NCBI RefSeq assembly: GCF_000243075.1
Contig: NC_016745.1
Location: 1-64,000 of the forward strand
From: Oceanimonas sp. GK1
Lineage (GTDB): Bacteria > Pseudomonadota > Gammaproteobacteria > Enterobacterales > Aeromonadaceae
Length of the DNA stretch: 64,000 nucleotides
Reading direction: 5' to 3'
In this document: one piece after another, positions 35,423 through 44,568 of the stretch
How positions within the stretch are numbered: position 1 is the stretch's first letter
Layout: every line of letters starts with the position of its first letter
Translations under genes and position numbers: made by a program
The notes under the pieces: generated by a model
What the model was told of the DNA's origin: nothing
The model's input: the letters and a program-made list of their open reading frames with translations, nothing else
Database searches by the model: none

Positions 35423-36916
35423 ATGAGCCAACACACCCTTGCCCACTGGCAAGCCCTGAGTGAAGGACTGCGGCCCGAGGGCCGCGCCTTTATCAACGGC
35501 TGTTACTGCAACGCCATTGCCGGCGAACGCTTTGCCAGTGTTAACCCGGCCACCGGACAGCCACTGGCCGAGGTGGCCAGCTGCGACGAGCAGGACGCCA
35601 ACCTGGCGGTAGCCCACGCGCGCACCGCCCTGCCCCACTGGGCCGGACTCGCACCGGCCGAGCGCAAACAAGTATTGCTGCGCTTTGCCGACCTGGTAGA
35701 GCAACACGCCGAGGAGCTGGCGCTGCTGGAAACCCTGGACATGGGCAAGCCTATTTCCAACAGCCTGGAGGTGGACCTGCCCGCGGCGGTGCGCTGCCTG
35801 CGCTGGAACGCCGAGGCCATCGACAAGGTGTATGGCGAAATCGCCCCCACTGCCGCCAGCAGCCTGGGGCTGGTGACCCGGGAACCTTTGGGCGTGGTGG
35901 CCGCCATCGTACCCTGGAACTTTCCGCTGATGATGGCCTGCTGGAAAATCGCCCCGGCCCTGGCCGCCGGCAATACCGTGATTTTAAAGCCCTCGGAGAA
36001 GTCCCCCTTAAGCGCCCTGCGGCTGGCGGCCCTGGCCCATGACGCCGGCCTGCCCGCCGGCGTGTTGCAGGTGCTGCCCGGCTACGGTCATACCGTGGGC
36101 AAGGCACTGGCGCTGCATATGGACGTTAACGCCCTGGCCTTTACCGGCTCCACCGGCGTGGGCAAGCGGCTAACCCAGTATGCGGGCGAGTCCAACCTAA
36201 AGCGCACCTTTATGGAGTGCGGCGGCAAGAGCGCCAATATCGTGTTTGCCGACGCCGGCAATCTGGATCGCGTGGCGCAACAGGCGGCCCAGGCCATTTT
36301 CTACAACCAGGGCGAGGTGTGCATTGCCGGTTCCCGACTGCTGGTGGAAAACGCCATCAAGGACGAGCTGGTAGAGCGCATTGTGCACCACGCAGCCGCC
36401 TGGCAGCCGGGCAACCCGTTGGATCCGACCACCACCATGGGGGCCATTGTGGATGCCACCCAGCTCGACGGCATTGCCGGCCATGTGGCGGCGGCACACA
36501 AGCAGGGCGCGCGCCTGCGCACTGGCGGCGAGCCGGTGAGCATAAATGGCGGCCTGTATTTTGCTCCCACTGTGTTTGATAACGTGGACAACAACATGGC
36601 GCTGGCGCGGGAAGAGGTGTTCGGCCCGGTGCTGGCGGTGATCGGCTTTGACAGCGCCGACGAAGCGGTGGCCATTGCCAACGACTCACCCTACGGCCTG
36701 GCGGCGGCGGTCTGGACCCAGAATCTCGACCGCGCCCTGACCACGGCGCGGCGGCTGGAGTCGGGCCAGGTATTCGTTAACAACTACGCCGGTGGCGACA
36801 TGACGGTGCCCTTTGGCGGTTACAAGCAGTCCGGCAACGGCCGCGACAAGTCGCTGCATTCTCTGGCCGAATACAGCCAGCTGAAAACCACCTGGATAGA
36901 GTTTGGGGCGGGATGA
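35423..36916 (+). CDS. puuC: Gamma-glutamyl-aminobutyraldehyde / omega-amino-aldehyde dehydrogenase
   Basis: 497-residue NAD(P)+ aldehyde dehydrogenase. General base Glu265 (FMECGGKS) and nucleophile Cys300 (NQGEVCIAGSR) are in place; VPWNFPLMM and FTGSTGVGKRL form the coenzyme pocket. Oxidises the aldehyde made by the preceding aminotransferase to the GABA-level product. 10 bp after the aminotransferase gene, with AAGGAGA ribosome site. Confidence 0.93.
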   Translation: MSQHTLAHWQALSEGLRPEGRAFINGCYCNAIAGERFASVNPATGQPLAEVASCDEQDANLAVAHARTALPHWAGLAPAERKQVLLRFADLVEQHAEELALLETLDMGKPISNSLEVDLPAAVRCLRWNAEAIDKVYGEIAPTAASSLGLVTREPLGVVAAIVPWNFPLMMACWKIAPALAAGNTVILKPSEKSPLSALRLAALAHDAGLPAGVLQVLPGYGHTVGKALALHMDVNALAFTGSTGVGKRLTQYAGESNLKRTFMECGGKSANIVFADAGNLDRVAQQAAQAIFYNQGEVCIAGSRLLVENAIKDELVERIVHHAAAWQPGNPLDPTTTMGAIVDATQLDGIAGHVAAAHKQGARLRTGGEPVSINGGLYFAPTVFDNVDNNMALAREEVFGPVLAVIGFDSADEAVAIANDSPYGLAAAVWTQNLDRALTTARRLESGQVFVNNYAGGDMTVPFGGYKQSGNGRDKSLHSLAEYSQLKTTWIEFGAG

Positions 36917-36951
36917 TGGCGGTGTGAAACACAAACAGGCCGAAAAACACC

Positions 36952-36980
36952 AAGGGCGCCGAAAGGCGCCCTTTCTTTTT
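36952..36980. terminator. Terminator closing the puuD operon
   Basis: AAGGGCGCC-GAAA-GGCGCCCTT followed by TCTTTTT. It lies 35 bp after the puuC stop and abuts the stop of the convergent LuxR gene. Confidence 0.9.
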
Positions 36981-37749
36981 ACTCCACTCCCAACTGCCGC
37001 AAAAACAGCTGAAATAGCTCAGCCTGACTGTTAATGGCGAGTTTGCCGTAAATATTCTTGCGGTGGTTCTTCACCGTGCCGGGGCTGATACACAGCAGGT
37101 CGGCAATGGCCGGGGCACTGTGCCCTTGCAAAAACAGCCGTGCCACCTGCTGCTCACGCTCGCTCAGACGTTCATCCATAAACTCTTCAGAGCCCGCCCC
37201 ATCGTCACCCGCAGGCTGCCAGTGGTGCTTTTCCAGCAGCGCCTGCAACAGGGGGAACAGGTAGGCCATTTTTTCGCTAAGCAGGTGACCGTCAGGGTGC
37301 GGCTGGGGCTGATAAAAGCCAAAGGAAAAAGCCAGGGTGGCATTCGTGTTGGGTGAGAAGAAACACATCAGCTCGTCATGCAAGCCCAGTCCGGTGTAGT
37401 AGGTCAGAAAATACTCGGTGCGCCGAAACTCGGAGGGGGCAATGTCGTCCAGACGGAACACGCCGGCGGCAGGCCGGTTCAGCCAGTGCTGGTAAAAAGG
37501 GTCGAGCTGATACATGCCGGCACAGTAAGGATGCAGGGTTTTCGCTTCCTGACGGTGGTTCAGATTATGCAACAGTATTTCGGGGCTGCGCCGGCGGTGA
37601 AACCGGCATAACACCAGATCGATACCGGCAAAGTAACTTTCCAGGCAGGCCTGAAGCTCGGGAAGAAATCCCTTGCAATCAACTTGTGACAACAGTTGAG
37701 CCAGGGGTTCAAGAGAAGTGGGTGCAATATCCTTTTGCATGAACGCCAT
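36979..37749 (-). CDS. LuxR-type transcriptional regulator
   Basis: About 256 residues. N-terminal sensing region without the acyl-homoserine-lactone signature; C-terminal GerE/LuxR helix-turn-helix (LSEREQQVARLFLQGHSAPAIADLLCISPGTVKNHRKNIYGKL, split across about residues 196-245). Regulators of this form sit by catabolic and transport genes. Likely target: the amidohydrolase-nhaC pair or puuDC. Start uncertain among GTG 37755, ATG 37749 and ATG 37740. Confidence 0.82.
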   Translation of the reverse strand: MAFMQKDIAPTSLEPLAQLLSQVDCKGFLPELQACLESYFAGIDLVLCRFHRRRSPEILLHNLNHRQEAKTLHPYCAGMYQLDPFYQHWLNRPAAGVFRLDDIAPSEFRRTEYFLTYYTGLGLHDELMCFFSPNTNATLAFSFGFYQPQPHPDGHLLSEKMAYLFPLLQALLEKHHWQPAGDDGAGSEEFMDERLSEREQQVARLFLQGHSAPAIADLLCISPGTVKNHRKNIYGKLAINSQAELFQLFLRQLGVE

Positions 37750-37834
37750 ATTCACCGACCAATAAAACGGTGAATAAAATGTAACACTCCAAACAGGCCC
37801 TGACCAGTTTTTGCGCTGGTTCAGGGCCGGGTCA

Positions 37835-38941
37835 TCAGGCGTGAATATCCGTCAGCAAGGGCACAAGACTTTCGAGCAGCGCCGCCTGGTGGGGCTGCAG
37901 TTCCTGCTGGCCCCAGCGGGCGATATCACCGCCGGCGGGATCGGGCACATGAATGTCACTCTGGCTCAGGGTTTCGATCACCCGGTGACCGCAGAAGGGC
38001 ACATAACCTTCCGAATAGCCCCCTTCGTGCACCATCACCAGCCGGCCCCGGCACAGGCGATCGGCGGCGGCCATCACGTTGGCGGTGAGCTGGCCAAAAG
38101 CATCGGCATTGAGCAGCATGCAGCCGAGCGGATCCATGGCGCTGGCATCAAAGCCACAGGCCACCACGATCAGCTCCGGCTTGAAACGATCCAGTGCCGG
38201 GATCACCAGTTGATCCATGGCCGCCAGGTAGGTACCGATACCGGATCCGGCCGGCAGCGGCACATTAAGGTTATAACCAAAGCCGGCGCCGCTGCCCCGC
38301 TCCTCCGCGCTGCCCGAGCCCACGGGATAGTTGTTGTCGTGATGCAGGGAAAGGGTCAGCACCTCCGCATCCTCATAAAACGCCTGCTGGGTGCCGTTGC
38401 CATGGTGCACGTCCCAGTCGATGACCGCCACCCGGCGCACCAGGCCCTGGGCCTGAGCCGCCCGAATGGCGATGGGAATATTGCCAAGCAGGCAAAACCC
38501 CATGCCCCGGTCCGCTTCGGCGTGATGGCCGGGCGGACGCGACAGGCAATAGCCGTTGTCGACCTCGCCGTTGAGCACCGCCGCCACCGTGGCCATGGCC
38601 AGGCCGGCCGAGCGGCAGGCAATGGGAAAGGCATCCTGGCGAAAGGGCGCATACTGGCCGGCATCACCGAAGCCCTGCTCGCTCATGACGCTGAGCTCGT
38701 CGATGTAACGCTCGGTATGAAAGCGCAGCAAATCTTCCCGCGCCGCCGGTGCCGCGTTCACCGGCGTCAGCTGCTCCAGCAGGCCGCTGACCGCCAGCAG
38801 GTTGCGCAGCCGGCGCTTGGTTTCCGGGTGCTCGGCGGCGGCGGCGGGCTGCACAAAGCCACCGGGTCGGTCGAACACCGAGCAGGGGCCGGCATCGTGC
38901 CACAGGCAGTGTTCGTGAAAGGCGAATCCAGTTCGTTTCAT
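37835..38941 (-). CDS. Histone-deacetylase-fold amidohydrolase (acetylpolyamine amidohydrolase-like)
   Basis: 368 residues of the HDAC/AcuC/APAH superfamily. Zinc ligands Asp177 and His179 (DWDVHHGNGTQ) and Asp265 (GFDASAMDPLG); catalytic His139-His140 in RPPGHHAEADRGMGFC; EGGY near the end. Family members remove acetyl groups from polyamines or proteins. Its location in a putrescine island argues for acetylpolyamine deacetylation. ATG 38941 follows AAGGAGA; 20 bp after the transporter gene. Confidence 0.88.
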   Translation of the reverse strand: MKRTGFAFHEHCLWHDAGPCSVFDRPGGFVQPAAAAEHPETKRRLRNLLAVSGLLEQLTPVNAAPAAREDLLRFHTERYIDELSVMSEQGFGDAGQYAPFRQDAFPIACRSAGLAMATVAAVLNGEVDNGYCLSRPPGHHAEADRGMGFCLLGNIPIAIRAAQAQGLVRRVAVIDWDVHHGNGTQQAFYEDAEVLTLSLHHDNNYPVGSGSAEERGSGAGFGYNLNVPLPAGSGIGTYLAAMDQLVIPALDRFKPELIVVACGFDASAMDPLGCMLLNADAFGQLTANVMAAADRLCRGRLVMVHEGGYSEGYVPFCGHRVIETLSQSDIHVPDPAGGDIARWGQQELQPHQAALLESLVPLLTDIHA

Positions 38942-38961
38942 CTTGCTCTCCTTGTTCGGAA

Positions 38962-40401
38962 TCAGGCCAGCAGCCACAACAGCAGGGTGGTGACGGCGGC
39001 GGCAATCAGGGTATAGGGCAGTTGGCTGAGGGCATGCTGCATCGGGCTGATGCCGCATCCCCGGGCGGAAATCACGGTGGAGTCGCCAAAGAAGCAGGCG
39101 TGGCTGCCAAAGGCACCGGCCGACACCAGGGCGCCCAGGGTCAGCGCCATGTTGGCGTCCAGAGCCTGAGCCAGGGGCACCATGATCGGAAAGGCGATGG
39201 CATAGACGCCCCAGAAGGAGCCGGTGGCAAAGGTCAGCCCGGCCAGTACCAGAAAGCTGAGCGCCGGCAGCCACTGGGCGTTCATGTAGGGGGTGATGGT
39301 GTCGATCAGATAGGGCGCCAGCCCCAGTTTCTCGTTGACCGCCTGTAGCACGAAGGCCGCGAACACGATGCCCAGGGGCAGTAACATGGTAGCCATGCCC
39401 TGAATAATTTCATCAAACAACCGGGGCAGGCTGGCCAGCCCCTGCAGCCGGTACAGCACCAGCGACACCACCAGGGCACAGCCCACGCCCATCAGGGCAT
39501 CGATATCGAAATACCAGGTGGCCAGCAGCAGGGTCAGTACCGGCAGCATGAAGTTCATCAGCCGCGGCGGCTGACGGTGGCCCGGCTCGTCCTGATCCAC
39601 CGACATGCTGTTGCCTGCAAGGCAGTCCCGCTCTGCCTTTTTCATTGAACCAAACAGCGGGATCACCCCAAAGGCCACCAGCGGCACCAGCAGCAGCGCC
39701 ACCCAGGGGTACACCAGATAGGGCAACAGGCTCAGGTAATAATTGAAGCCTTCCCCTTCGGACACCAGGCCATTGGCTTCAATCAGCCCGGCGAGATAAA
39801 TCACCCAGGTGGAAAAAGGGATCAGCAGGCACACCGGCGCCGAGGTGGAGTCCACCACATAGGCCAGCATGTCCCGGGAGATTTTCAACTTGTCCGACAG
39901 CTTGCGCATGGCGGTGCTAACGGTCAGGGCGTTGAGGTAGTCATCGATAAAAATGGCAATGCCCAGCAGCCAGCTGGCCACCAGGGCATGAGAGCGGCGC
40001 TTGACGTATTTGCCCAGGGCATCGCTGAAGGCCAGGGTGGCGCCGGAAAACTGCAGCAGCGCAATCAGGCTGCCGAGCAGGCCGCACACCAGAATAAGCC
40101 AGCCCATGATGGGCCCCTGCATTACCTCCAGGGTGCTGGCCACAAAGTTGTGCAGCGTCCGCTGTGGCTCCACCAGGGCAAAGCCCGTCAGGGCACCGGC
40201 CAGCAGCGGCTCCAGGGTACGTCGGGTCAGCAACGCCAGCCCCAGCACCACCAGGGTGGGCAGCAGGGCAAAGAGCCCGAATTCGCCTTCGCGGTTGCCC
40301 GCACCCAGAGATACCGCCAGCATCACCAGAGCGCTCAATATCATCAGCCGTAGCCAGCCGATGGGTAGCTTATCCACGCTGGGGGTCAGTATTTTTTCCA
40401 T
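38962..40401 (-). CDS. NhaC-family transporter (second copy)
   Basis: 479 residues, about eleven helices, with the same landmarks as the carrier at 29660-31612 (IFIDDYLNALTVSTAMRKL, VDSTSAPVCLLIPFSTW, FATGSFWGVYAIAFP, GSHACFFGDSTVISA) but no exported N-terminal domain. It is cotranscribed with the amidohydrolase gene, which suggests that it imports an acetylated polyamine; that is inference. ATG 40401 follows GAGGAAGAGGC. Confidence 0.87.
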   Translation of the reverse strand: MEKILTPSVDKLPIGWLRLMILSALVMLAVSLGAGNREGEFGLFALLPTLVVLGLALLTRRTLEPLLAGALTGFALVEPQRTLHNFVASTLEVMQGPIMGWLILVCGLLGSLIALLQFSGATLAFSDALGKYVKRRSHALVASWLLGIAIFIDDYLNALTVSTAMRKLSDKLKISRDMLAYVVDSTSAPVCLLIPFSTWVIYLAGLIEANGLVSEGEGFNYYLSLLPYLVYPWVALLLVPLVAFGVIPLFGSMKKAERDCLAGNSMSVDQDEPGHRQPPRLMNFMLPVLTLLLATWYFDIDALMGVGCALVVSLVLYRLQGLASLPRLFDEIIQGMATMLLPLGIVFAAFVLQAVNEKLGLAPYLIDTITPYMNAQWLPALSFLVLAGLTFATGSFWGVYAIAFPIMVPLAQALDANMALTLGALVSAGAFGSHACFFGDSTVISARGCGISPMQHALSQLPYTLIAAAVTTLLLWLLA

Positions 40402-40461
40402 TGCCTCTTCCTCGTCTCTCCATTGACGCTTCATCATAGAAGGAGGCAGGATGTGGCCAAC

Positions 40462-40479
40462 ATGTCCCCCAAGGGACAT
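40462..40479. promoter_or_regulatory. Palindromic operator candidate before the nhaC-amidohydrolase operon
   Basis: ATGTCCC-CCAA-GGGACAT, perfect 7-bp arms, 61 bp before the transporter start. A plausible site for the LuxR-type regulator; not matched to the PuuR consensus. Confidence 0.45.
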
Positions 40480-40565
40480 TTGACGTGAGCAGGATCACAT
40501 CAACAATTAACCATTTAAAAACACTTTGAATACAGCTTACAAACAAGTCGGCCGATCAGGCATAA

Positions 40566-40583
40566 CGAGGGCACGCGCCCTCG
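40566..40583 (-). terminator. Hairpin after puuR
   Basis: CGAGGGC-ACGC-GCCCTCG just after the puuR stop. Only a short T-tract follows on the minus strand, so it is a weak terminator or a stability hairpin. Confidence 0.5.
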
Positions 40584-40590
40584 CTGAAGA

Positions 40591-41169
40591 TCAGAAATGC
40601 TTGGCGGGGGTGGAGCAGCTGACGATGCGGCAGGGCTGGTCACTGATATTGCGAAAGCGGTGGGGCTGGGTGGTGGAGAAGTAATAGCTGTCGCCGGCCT
40701 TCAGCAGCCGGTGCTGGGCACCGATGGTGATTTCGATTTCTCCTTCAATCACCACCCCCGCTTCCTCGCCGTGGTAGGCCATCATGTCGTGGCCGGTGTC
40801 CACGCCGGGCGGGTAGGTTTCCACAATAAAGGACATGGCCCGGTTCTTGCGGTTGTAACCCACCAGTTTCAGGGACAGGTTGCCGCTGCCCACGTCCTGC
40901 AGCTCGTCGGGGCTGAAAAAGATCTGATCGGTGTTTTGCAGATCCAGGGTAAAGAACTCGCCCACCGTCATGGGTATGCCGTCCAGGATCTTCTTGAGCG
41001 AGCTCACCGACGGGCTGACCTTGCCCTGCTCAATCAGCGACAGGCTGGAGTGGGTCACACCGGTGCGTTTGGCCAGCTCCCGCTGGGAAATATTGCGCAT
41101 CAGGCGCACGGCCTTGAGGCGGGTGCCCACATCATTGGCGTCGTCGCCGCCCTGCTTCGCTGTTGTCAT
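40591..41169 (-). CDS. puuR: PuuR-like XRE-cupin repressor
   Basis: 192 residues: XRE helix-turn-helix (LKAVRLMRNISQRELAKRTGVTHSSLSLIEQGKVSP, about 17-53) and a C-terminal cupin (VDTGHDMMAYHGEEAGVVIEGEIEI). Same layout and length as E. coli PuuR, which represses the puu genes and is released by putrescine. A weak PuuR-like site (41177-41191 on the minus strand) lies in front of it. Confidence 0.9.
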   Translation of the reverse strand: MTTAKQGGDDANDVGTRLKAVRLMRNISQRELAKRTGVTHSSLSLIEQGKVSPSVSSLKKILDGIPMTVGEFFTLDLQNTDQIFFSPDELQDVGSGNLSLKLVGYNRKNRAMSFIVETYPPGVDTGHDMMAYHGEEAGVVIEGEIEITIGAQHRLLKAGDSYYFSTTQPHRFRNISDQPCRIVSCSTPAKHF

Positions 41170-41248: not shown

Positions 41249-42247
41249 TTACAGCCCGGCCTGCTCCAGCCGGGTGGCCATATCATCCAGGCCGTCCAGC
41301 CCCTGAATATCCGTGGGCTGCAGATATAACGGATAGCGATTCAGGCCGGCAAAAGTTCGCTCTATCTCAGCCAGATGTGTTTTTTCCTGGCTTCGGCGTT
41401 GTGCCAGAAAAGCACCGTCAGCTTCATCAGGCAGAATGCGGTTCACCACCAGGCCGGCCAGGGGCAACTTTTCTTCCCGCAGCGCTGTTACCGCCCGTTC
41501 GGTTTCCAGTATCGGCAGCTTTTCGGGGGTGAGCACAAACAGCAGCGCGGTCTGTGTATTGTCGGTCAGCAGGCGGCGAGTGCGCTGAAACAGCCGCTGG
41601 CGCGCCAGCAGGGTGTCGGTAATGGACTTGGTGCGTTCGTCCATGCCGGCGGTTTCGTGGGTTCGCGGGTCACCAAAGGGGCTGTCCAGATCCTTGCCCG
41701 GGGTTAAATGGTTCAGCACCTCACCCAGTTTTTCCGAGCGCTGGTTGCTTTTCAGCATGCCTTGCGTCCAGGCCGCCATGGCCTCGGGCAGGCTGAGCAG
41801 GCGCAGGGTGTGGCCGGTGGGCGCCGTATCGAAAATCACCAGGTCATGAGTTTGCAGCCCTTCTTCCATCACTCTGGCCATGCGCTCCAGCAGCGCCGCT
41901 TCCTGGGCTCCCGGCGACTGACGGGTAAGCCGCATCTGTCGCTCCACCTCGCCGTACATTTCCGGGCGGGTAAAACGCTTGAGCTGGGCCAGCACTCGGG
42001 CCAGGTGCTGCTCCACCTCGTGATCCGGATCCAGCTCCAGACCATCGAGGTTGGGGGCCAGCCGGGTAATGGTGTCGCCGATTTCCCGGCCAAAGGCATC
42101 GGCCAGGCTGTGGGCGGGGTCGGTGGATACCAGCAGGCAGCGCTTGCCCCGGCGTGCCGCCAATAGTGCCAGGGACGACGACACCGTGGTCTTGCCCACG
42201 CCGCCCTTGCCGCCCACCAGCAACACCCGCTTGTCGGTCAGTAACAT
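41249..42247 (-). CDS. ArsA/Get3-family ATPase
   Basis: 332-residue single-domain ATPase: deviant Walker A GGKGGVGKTTVSS at residues 12-24, switch I STDPAHSLADAFG, and IFDTAPTGHTLRLLSLP. Only one Cys is present, so the arsenite-binding triad of true ArsA is missing; an arsenic pump role is unlikely. Related proteins sort tail-anchored membrane proteins (Get3). It is downstream of cstA and the Cys-Cys-ending small protein, 369 bp away, on the same strand. Start ATG 42247 gives the family N-terminus. Confidence 0.88.
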   Translation of the reverse strand: MLLTDKRVLLVGGKGGVGKTTVSSSLALLAARRGKRCLLVSTDPAHSLADAFGREIGDTITRLAPNLDGLELDPDHEVEQHLARVLAQLKRFTRPEMYGEVERQMRLTRQSPGAQEAALLERMARVMEEGLQTHDLVIFDTAPTGHTLRLLSLPEAMAAWTQGMLKSNQRSEKLGEVLNHLTPGKDLDSPFGDPRTHETAGMDERTKSITDTLLARQRLFQRTRRLLTDNTQTALLFVLTPEKLPILETERAVTALREEKLPLAGLVVNRILPDEADGAFLAQRRSQEKTHLAEIERTFAGLNRYPLYLQPTDIQGLDGLDDMATRLEQAGL

Positions 42248-42616
42248 GTCATCTCTCCAAACAGTAAGGCCGGCACACAAAGCCGGCCCCGGCATGCGAA
42301 GCCGGCCCCGGCATGCGAAGCGACAGCAGGGTTACCTTCTTCGACACGCTTCAAGCCCATCCCTGGGACGCTCGGCACATGCCATCCCTGGCATGTGACG
42401 GTCGAATACGGCAATCCCTGCTCCCGCTTCGTCAAACAAAGGCGTTGCCTGACTTGTATTACAGGCAACTGAGTGCTCGGCAGGGAGGGAAAAGGGAACG
42501 GCTCCACCGACCCTCTGCGCCATGGATGGCGCAGCGGAGCCCCCAAGGATGGGTTTACGGCGAGTCGGTGGCGCCGGCCCTTTTTCCGACCTTTGCCAAG
42601 CCAGAAGACAACTCAA
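42248..42616. repeat. 369-bp gene-free gap filled with repeats and hairpins
   Basis: No gene found. A 19-bp unit (AGCCGGCCCCGGCATGCGA) occurs twice in tandem at 42281-42299 and 42300-42318. Hairpins follow: ACATGCC...GGCATGT (42377-42396) and CTGCGCCAT...ATGGCGCAG (around 42517-42536). The latter, continuing GCGGAGCCCCCAAGGATGGGTTTACGGCG, looks like a dispersed intergenic palindrome family. CGACACGCTTC at 42342-42352 is shared with the element after yccU. Confidence 0.65.
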
Positions 42617-42889
42617 TCAGCAACAGCGGAAGTGATCCAGCGGTGAGTGCTCCATGCCCATGCGCTGGTGCCAGTCGTGAAACCGCTCCAGCAGCAGCGG
42701 CTGCAGCTCCAGGGTGTAATAGGAGGCCGGATTCGGCACCCCCATCATTTCCGAGAACACCAGCAGCATAAAGAGGTCGTCTTCCTCGCGCCGGGCCCGG
42801 GCAATGGCCGCCCGGTACGGCGCGTTGTACACCTCTTCCGCATAGCGGCTGGCCCGGTTAACCCAGGCCAGCATCCGCTTGATTTTCAC
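42617..42889 (-). CDS. Small CstA-associated protein ending in Cys-Cys (cory-CC-star type)
   Basis: 90 residues, mostly helical and charged, with a central aromatic/hydrophobic part (DDLFMLLVFSEMMGVPNPASYY) and the last two residues Cys89-Cys90 before the stop. This matches what I know as the 'cory-CC-star' family found next to CstA and ArsA genes. E. coli CstA and BtsT need the small proteins YbdD/YjiX, which also end in Cys-Cys, so this protein may have the same role. The start overlaps the cstA stop by four bases (ATGA). Confidence 0.8.
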   Translation of the reverse strand: MKIKRMLAWVNRASRYAEEVYNAPYRAAIARARREEDDLFMLLVFSEMMGVPNPASYYTLELQPLLLERFHDWHQRMGMEHSPLDHFRCC

Positions 42890-44568
42890 GACTTGTCCTC
42901 TACCTGCCCGGCCTTACCACCACGCAGCCGGGTCAGGGTGGCGCCACACTCCAGGGCCACCAGAATGGCTGCCGCCAGCACCACCAGATCCAGACCGAAC
43001 AGGAACCAGTTGGCCTGCTCATAAAAGCCCTTGAGCTGAATCAGCAGCGCCAGCACCGTCATCACCAGCAGGAACAGCAGCGGCACCAGCGTCACGTACA
43101 TGGGCCGGCCCAGACGCGCCAGCATCACGGTGATCACCAGCAAGGTCAGCCCCGCCAGCAGCTGGTTGGTGGTGCCGAACAGCGGCCAGATCAACAGACC
43201 GCCGGAGCCGTCTCCGCCGGAGCCAAAGGCCAACAGCAGACAGGAAGCCACCGCCAGCAGGGTGGCCGGGGCGGCCTTTTGCATCCAGTTAATCTTGTAG
43301 ATGACACCCCATTCCTGAAAAATGTAGCGCTGCAGCCGCAGGCCGGTGTCCATGGTGGTACCGGCAAAGAGTACCGCCATCACGGTGAGAATGGTTTGCG
43401 ACAGCTCGATCTCAAAACCCAGGCCATTGCTCAGAATGTTGGCGCCGCCCTGCACAAAGGCGGCCACGCCGCCCTGGCCAAAGCCGCTGTAAATGGCCTG
43501 CCAGTCGGCGAGCGTCGCAAAACCGGCGGTGGCGGCAATGATCGCAGCCAGTGCCAGACAGCCTTCGCCGATGGCGCCGAAGTAACCCACAAAACGCAGG
43601 TCGGTTTCCTTGTCGAGCTGTTTGGAGGTGGTGCCGGACGACACCAGACCATGAAAGCCGGAGATGGCACCACAGGCGATGGTCACAAACAGCAGCGGCA
43701 GCAATGACGGCGTCCCTTCCGGTACGTTGTCGTTAAAGGCCGGGGCCACCACCTCCGGGGCCGACAGCAGCACGGCCCCGTAGAGCAGGCCCAGGCCCAC
43801 GAACAGCTGCAGGCCGTTGATGTAGTCCCGGGGCTGCAGCAGCATCCACACCGGCAGCAGCGAGGCGATGGCGGCATAAACAAACAGCAGAATGATCCAC
43901 TGGGCCTTGTCGGTCAGTCCCAGAAACAGCTCGGGCAGTGCCAGCGGCAGGGACGGCCCCACCCAGATCAGGGCGTACAGGGCGATCACCCCCACCACGG
44001 AGACGGTGAGCAGGCCAATCATTTTGCGATAAATCAGCTGGCCGATGATCAGCGCGACGATGATGGCGCCCCATACCGGCACCACCGAGGTCTGAAACTG
44101 GGTGAGCAGGCCGGCGATGACCACGGCGAACACCGCGTTCACCATCAGCAATACCAGGAAGATGACGATCATGAAGATGCTGCGGGCGCGCTTACCCACC
44201 ACGTCGCCGGTAAGCGCGCCCACCGATTTGGCCTTGTTGCGGTTACTGGCCCATATGGCACCGGCATCGTGCACACCGGCAAAGAAAATGGTGCCGAACA
44301 CCACCCACAAAAAAGCCGGCACCCAGCCCCAGATCACCGCGATGGCCGGTCCGACGATGGGCGCGGCCCCGGCCACCGAGGTGAAGTGATGGCCCCAGAG
44401 CACGAACTTGTTGGTGGGCACATAGTCCACGCCGTCTTCAAACTCATGGGCCGGCGTGCGAAAGTTGGGATCCAGCCGAAATATTTTTTCGGCCACGAAT
44501 TTCGAATAGACAAAATAGCCGAGCGCCATGGCGCCCAGCCCGATCAACATCAGGAATATGGCATTCAT
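42886..44568 (-). CDS. cstA: Carbon starvation protein CstA-type transporter
   Basis: 560 residues with about fourteen to sixteen membrane helices. Typical CstA segments: PTNKFVLWGHHFTSVAGAAPIVGPAIAV (residues about 50-78), FHGLVSSGTTSKQL and GTTMDTGLRLQRYIFQEWG. CstA and its relative BtsT take up pyruvate and possibly peptides in E. coli. The product is shorter than E. coli CstA (about 700), closer to the actinobacterial and BtsT-like forms. Translational overlap with the Cys-Cys protein gene. Confidence 0.93.
   Translation of the reverse strand: MNAIFLMLIGLGAMALGYFVYSKFVAEKIFRLDPNFRTPAHEFEDGVDYVPTNKFVLWGHHFTSVAGAAPIVGPAIAVIWGWVPAFLWVVFGTIFFAGVHDAGAIWASNRNKAKSVGALTGDVVGKRARSIFMIVIFLVLLMVNAVFAVVIAGLLTQFQTSVVPVWGAIIVALIIGQLIYRKMIGLLTVSVVGVIALYALIWVGPSLPLALPELFLGLTDKAQWIILLFVYAAIASLLPVWMLLQPRDYINGLQLFVGLGLLYGAVLLSAPEVVAPAFNDNVPEGTPSLLPLLFVTIACGAISGFHGLVSSGTTSKQLDKETDLRFVGYFGAIGEGCLALAAIIAATAGFATLADWQAIYSGFGQGGVAAFVQGGANILSNGLGFEIELSQTILTVMAVLFAGTTMDTGLRLQRYIFQEWGVIYKINWMQKAAPATLLAVASCLLLAFGSGGDGSGGLLIWPLFGTTNQLLAGLTLLVITVMLARLGRPMYVTLVPLLFLLVMTVLALLIQLKGFYEQANWFLFGLDLVVLAAAILVALECGATLTRLRGGKAGQVEDKS

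Follow-up and report, generated by a model that had tools for sequence, protein, structure and literature searches.

The window analysed here is the whole 64,000-nucleotide stretch at positions 1 to 64,000 of contig NC_016745.1 (NCBI RefSeq assembly GCF_000243075.1) from Oceanimonas sp. GK1. Its reverse strand carries three consecutive genes, for a CstA-family carrier, a 90-residue protein of the cory-CC-star family ending in Cys-Cys, and a single-domain ATPase of the ArsA/Get3 family. We use 'class II' for the CstA subfamily that goes with cory-CC-star. The features of the locus are as follows.

42886..44568, minus strand: cstA, a class II CstA-family carrier of 560 residues (Pfam PF02554, 465 bits), inside the cory-CC-star clade of the CstA tree.
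42617..42889, minus strand: gene of the cory-CC-star (putative CstX) small protein, 90 residues (NCBIfam NF041419, 141 bits), with a GTG start and an Arg-Cys-Cys end.
42886..42889, minus strand: GTGA overlap of the small-gene start and the cstA stop, read in the sequence, which may couple their translation.
42620..42625, minus strand: terminal Cys-Cys codons of the small gene, read in the sequence.
42248..42616, minus strand: gap of 369 bases between the small gene and arsA, read in the sequence.
41249..42247, minus strand: arsA-like gene for a single-domain ArsA/Get3-family ATPase of 332 residues (TIGR00345, 268 bits; conservation over 100 aligned rows).
41249..42247, minus strand: motifs of the ArsA-like protein, Walker A GGKGGVGKT, STDPAH and DTAPTGHT, with one non-conserved Cys, from the alignment.

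An initial annotation, made from the sequence alone, had noticed the four-base overlap between cstA and the 90-residue gene, the Cys-Cys end (...DHFRCC) and the ArsA-like ATPase on the same strand, and all three were confirmed in the sequence. Its description of the ATPase as having a single Cys fits the 332-residue protein that starts at the ATG at 42247 (MLLTDK), the start agreeing with congeners; the 348-residue open reading frame (ORF) of the listing, which starts at 42295, holds two Cys. The gap before arsA is shorter in several congeners and varies in length within the genus. No terminator-like site was found on the operon strand in the gap, and the three genes probably form one operon with a single transcript. 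Short GC-rich repeats also lie in the gap, with no second copy in the window.

The small protein scored 141.2 bits against the cory-CC-star model NF041419 (curated cut-off 80) and is a full-length member of that family, whose name carries no function. NF041419 was its only NCBIfam match, nothing in Pfam matched up to an E value of 1, and it does not belong to the Sel_put/YbdD/KCU-star family (PF04328, NF033934). The ArsA-like protein reached 268.5 bits against the GET3/arsA/TRC40 model TIGR00345 (cut-off 135), as against 144 and 157 bits with arsenical ArsA models whose cut-offs are 650 and 800. CstA scored 235 bits with the E. coli-type equivalog model (cut-off 1188), which places it in the same family but in another equivalog. 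A sequence search of the Protein Data Bank matched the ArsA-like protein to Get3 structures of archaeal and eukaryotic origin, returned nothing for CstA and gave nothing credible for either small family (cory-CC-star, Sel_put). Viral contigs held no cory-CC-star relatives.

Gene sets of this kind have been described before. The available text of Castillo & Saier 2010 (PMC2963123) reports 26 CstA-ArsA associations, 24 of them with a small protein, CstX, and proposes that CstX couples CstA to ArsA; its section 3.2 shows that CstA, CstX and ArsA co-occur and that their trees agree. The window locus shares with these operons cstA, a gene of about 90 codons and a single-domain arsA of about 330 codons lacking the metal cysteines, all without ars genes, and we found no difference between them. 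By size and context, CstX would be the cory-CC-star family. A literature search for CstX together with CstA returned PMC2963123 only, and one for cory-CC-star found no paper. Neither YbdD nor the terminal Cys-Cys of CstX appears in the available passages of PMC2963123.

To survey the gene set more widely, we scanned GTDB genomes with the small protein and kept the best 80 of 572 confirmed loci, which favours close relatives. Adding 15 loci from a further genome search gives 95, the window's own included; certain species are represented twice, and a few loci have broken frames. The genes cstA, small gene and arsA are consecutive on one strand in all 95. In the 23 genomes of the genus, the small gene, class II cstA and full-length ArsA (>230 bits) were each found in ten, always the same ten, and the other 13 have none of the three; 12 of these hold another CstA type. 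The three genes are thus gained and lost as a unit within the genus. A wider draw of 369 Gammaproteobacteria gave nine cory-CC-star matches, eight of them above the cut-off, and seven new loci. Six of the seven encode a full small protein ending in Cys-Cys, with ArsA adjoining in five; the seventh is a weak remnant (L231, 27.7 bits) with a different end. The set was also present on the one plasmid opened from each of Pseudochrobactrum, Paracoccus and Cytobacillus, the last with one additional small gene inside it. In two Natronospirillum loci (L086, L098), arsA is directly followed by another class II cstA, which has no small gene of its own.

These results strongly support the earlier view of the three genes as one functional set, itself previously published (PMC2963123). 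Most of the loci examined are gammaproteobacterial and share common ancestry, as would be expected if the genes were neighbours by descent alone and had no joint function. Such an explanation is very improbable given their joint presence and absence within one genus, the persistence of the set in Alphaproteobacteria and Bacillota, and the joint absence of both partners from three genomes that keep CstA (see below).

The Cys-Cys end of the small protein is invariant, being found at all 95 loci and at 9/9 further loci with a full protein. We drew these counts from the 95- and 9-locus sets because the full collection of 106 small-protein rows contains L004 and L005 twice and 11 added rows picked partly by their CC end. 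The four-base overlap with cstA occurs at 25 of the 95 loci, when the small gene is taken to begin at the start codon closest to the end of cstA, a choice that favours small gaps and overlaps.

A known parallel is the CstA-YbdD pair of E. coli, in which a small gene likewise directly follows cstA; YbdD belongs to PF04328 (Sel_put, DUF466) and NF033934 (KCU-star). Unlike the window set, this pair involves another CstA subfamily, a small protein without detectable homology to cory-CC-star, and no ArsA. According to the available text of PMC5847655, losing YbdD reduces pyruvate uptake through CstA to roughly the same degree as losing CstA itself, which bears out the initial annotation's statement that E. 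coli CstA needs YbdD; our literature search found no publication showing a need of BtsT for YjiX. A YbdD-type protein from a fetched contig matched Sel_put and also, with a score below the cut-off, KCU-star.

The annotation had further suggested that the Cys-Cys protein replaces YbdD, and a survey for the three genes and for YbdD gave, besides the 95/95 loci, no Sel_put match in any of 51 genomes with the small protein. There was likewise none in the 23 genus genomes, a set overlapping with the 51, or in the window genome. Among 299 Pseudomonadota, cory-CC-star occurs in six and Sel_put in 50, with no genome in common. We found no genome with the small protein and a ybdD beside cstA, although short, divergent family members may escape the Sel_put model, as one did in genome G114. 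In a quick tree of 78 CstA rows (L237 left out), Sel_put-linked and cory-CC-star-linked CstA form separate clades with supports of 100 and 97. Because of this separation, each CstA subfamily appears to have its own partner, with no swap on the same carrier. The replacement idea therefore stands insofar as the two families were not found together in any genome, but not as a substitution by a homologous protein on the same CstA.

A terminal Cys-Cys is nevertheless common to both pairs and occurs on three carriers, namely YbdD, cory-CC-star and the C-terminus of CstA itself. Ten E. coli-type CstA proteins end in Arg-Cys-Cys (L219, L220 and L232-L239), and their genomes (G018, G034, G077, G041, G101, G053, G073, G045, G181 and G137) contain no Sel_put match. 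The RCC end is invariant in these ten distinct proteins (78-95% identity), and much of the preceding tail is variable. Among 55 distinct E. coli-type CstA, from loci gathered in several ways, 43 have a small downstream ORF that ends in CC or CxC, ten carry their own RCC tail, none has both and two have neither. The 28 fetched by CstA score alone include 27 with the small ORF. Neither a tail nor a small ORF nearby was seen for L243 (G089) and L205 (G222), and both genomes encode Sel_put elsewhere. Another candidate for this last group, L240 (G114:C54), was rejected, as a 52-57-residue ORF (ending at 755) that the Sel_put model had missed overlaps the cstA stop and ends in GCC. Genomes G097 and G153 yielded N-terminal CstA fragments only, whose tails are not readable. 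The fetched loci contain 1064 distinct ORFs of at least 200 codons; a Cys-Cys end occurs in 11, and all of these are, judged by sequence, Sel_put, cory-CC-star or self-tailed CstA frames. In 4/34 Sel_put proteins (L223, L224, L160 and L221), Cys-Pro-Cys takes the place of the Cys-Cys end.

YbdD and cory-CC-star also resemble each other in overall build, with helices followed by a loose Cys-Cys tail. Predicted models of both proteins are helical with a loose tail, at a mean predicted local distance difference test score of 70 each and predicted template modelling scores of 0.40 and 0.44; we drew no homology from them because these scores are modest. In some Campylobacterales, the tail of the YbdD family is Cys-selenocysteine (Sec). 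The available part of PMC4607533 describes such terminal Cys-Sec forms of Sel_put, with a selenocysteine insertion sequence (SECIS), in Helicobacter and Campylobacter species, and its authors infer redox activity by comparison with thioredoxin reductase. The same family is listed as KCU-star in PMC13188914. Neither paper mentions CstA in its available text, nor does that of PMC5847655 mention cysteine, and our literature search found no publication linking CstA/YbdD, terminal cysteines and selenoprotein forms. Because the YbdD family has published Cys-selenocysteine forms, a redox dithiol is likely to be the common element of the tails. We tentatively propose, while thinking it somewhat more doubtful than probable, that two CstA lineages make use of a portable working element, a C-terminal dithiol or thiol-selenol carried by YbdD, by the unrelated cory-CC-star or by CstA's own end, and that the tail on cory-CC-star is the one on which the ArsA-like ATPase works. 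The portable terminal Cys-Cys would be the new element here, the gene set itself having been previously described.

Several observations weigh against our preferred explanation, set out below, of which such a tail is part. Nine of the ten self-tailed CstA are in the tree and form one clade with support 100 among the Sel_put-linked CstA, so that the self-tail counts as a single evolutionary event, and the placement of this clade inside, not beside, the Sel_put clade depends on branches of 80-93, none of them starred. Homology of cory-CC-star to Sel_put was rejected (hhalign probability 1.5%, with 8/150 column shuffles scoring as well), and no Sec form of cory-CC-star was seen. The expected chance overlap in the 299-genome draw is about one genome, so the draw alone proves little, and the non-overlap of the two small families is in part a consequence of the CstA subfamily present in each genome.

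Cases of missing partners point in the same direction. Genome G564 (locus L229, G564:C39), the source of the one new full locus without an adjoining ArsA, has cstA and cory-CC-star and no ArsA match at an E value of 1e-20, and its congener G668 has ArsA; a 309-residue ORF without a convincing family match lies downstream at L229. Three genomes of one genus (L212-L214 in G015, G276 and G288) have retained a class II CstA that branches within the cory-CC-star clade of the tree, and have neither the small gene nor a full-length ArsA; the need for the partners is therefore not absolute. Many CstA are partnerless, including the second CstA type of the genus (0/20) and two class II groups. The window genome itself has a second, distant CstA (G000:C1:3447417-3448898) without a Cys-Cys partner, beside a LytS/LytTR-like pair, a neighbourhood checked for this copy of the type. 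A universal need of CstA for Cys-Cys is ruled out by the 0/20 second-type CstA together with ten class II CstA that lie outside the operon and lack a related small gene. Of 108 distinct class II CstA, 19 have no CC or CxC ORF within 450 bases: nine are in partnerless groups, two are the second copies in L086 and L098, and in the others, all operon members, the frame is broken or the gap is longer. The scan of downstream ORFs gave one chance hit among 30 partnerless CstA, an unrelated ORF at L212, which is one of the ten class II cases.

That ArsA alone is missing once, and the small gene together with ArsA three times, fits a linker-like hierarchy in which ArsA requires the small protein, which in turn requires CstA, although the cases are few. 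The same pattern would be allowed by the model of Castillo & Saier 2010, in which ArsA directly energises CstA through the small protein as linker, the secondary carrier becomes ATP-driven and the Cys-Cys is structural. The published co-occurrence and matching trees (PMC2963123, available text) and the conserved ATPase motifs agree with this model. However, the genomes G166, G054, G034 and G018 have an E. coli-type CstA and no full-length ArsA, indicating that CstA as such needs no ArsA, and a mere linker leaves the invariant terminal Cys-Cys in two families and in CstA unexplained. We consider direct energising unlikely, though the strongest of the alternatives.

The ArsA-like protein itself narrows the possibilities. 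In an alignment of 100 rows (fragments L068, L091 and L118 dropped), the P-loop, STDPAH, DTAPTGHT and an LPE..AW..G segment are conserved, and by these motifs the protein can probably hydrolyse ATP. No Cys column is conserved, the commonest Cys position among the columns of the window protein being filled in 18/100 rows. The two Cys positions of 3zq6 align with G and L in the window protein, which thus lacks the zinc CxxC dimer motif of Get3 targeting factors. The two domains and conserved metal Cys of arsenical ArsA are also lacking, the protein having 332 residues in one domain. It shares family, P-loop and switch motifs with ArsA/Get3/TRC40 ATPases, but has neither metal-site Cys nor zinc CxxC and is tied to cstA instead of to ars genes or tail-anchored proteins. 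It thus falls outside both the arsenical ArsA and the zinc-type Get3 groups. The initial annotation had suggested that the ATPase may help the carrier to mature or to insert, or may regulate it; relevant to such a putative role are the intact ATPase motifs, the non-conserved zinc CxxC and the retention of cstA and the small gene in G564, which lacks a full-length ArsA.

Membrane insertion of CstA or of the small protein, with the ArsA-like protein as a Get3-like targeting chaperone, would suit the family match to GET3/TRC40 and to the solved Get3 structures from archaea and eukaryotes. This is improbable, since a zinc CxxC is missing along with any conserved Cys, CstA is a multi-spanning and not a tail-anchored protein, and no transmembrane stretch was found in the small protein (maximum 19-residue hydropathy 0.90-1.48, above 1.6 in 0/106 rows), although PMC2963123, in its available text, calls the CstX of one archaeal cluster single-transmembrane-segment.

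Vicinal cysteines beside an ArsA homologue also recall the handover from ArsD to ArsA, and the small protein's thiols might pass arsenite or a soft metal to the ATPase. We regard such a metalloid system as hardly credible, as ArsA has no conserved Cys, the same tail occurs on Sel_put or CstA in the four genomes without full-length ArsA, and arsenic-resistance genes are absent from cstA-cstX-arsA operons according to the available text of PMC2963123. The initial annotation had argued that the missing metal cysteines speak against arsenite pumping; the 100 rows agree, and according to the same text, single-domain homologues do not conserve the three metal cysteines of ArsA.

No ars genes are among the named neighbours of the cstA operon in the window. 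Beside it, at 35423-41169, lie aldehyde-dehydrogenase-like (by eye), histone-deacetylase-like and Na+/H+-antiporter-like genes and the gene of a PuuR-like regulator that scores below its model's cut-off; together they may form a polyamine-use cluster.

Our preferred explanation, on which we are evenly divided between acceptance and doubt, is an operon for a CstA-family importer with an accessory small protein that bears a redox dithiol tail and through which the ArsA-like ATPase acts. It builds on the observed gene order, the joint gain and loss of the three genes, their lack of overlap with Sel_put genomes and the invariant tail with its three carriers; the single transcript, the docking, the redox chemistry, the substrate and the step performed by the ATPase are inferences. 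The carrier would import pyruvate as its likeliest substrate, judging from E. coli CstA. The small protein would be an accessory subunit of class II CstA whose helical body binds both CstA and the ATPase. Its flexible C-terminal Cys-Cys would be a redox-active dithiol needed by the carrier, as the YbdD tail may be for E. coli-type CstA, and the ATPase would act on CstA via the small protein, either by ATP-driven loading and resetting of the tail or by energising transport.

In 2018, the need of YbdD for pyruvate uptake by CstA was shown and the function of YbdD was left unknown, and its family had separately been noted as a selenoprotein with terminal Sec. The present comparison joins these two facts and adds an unrelated second small family and the self-tailed CstA. 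If the portable tail is real, a nutrient carrier would depend on a redox tail supplied in cis or in trans, and the question becomes addressable by simple tail mutations in E. coli K-12.

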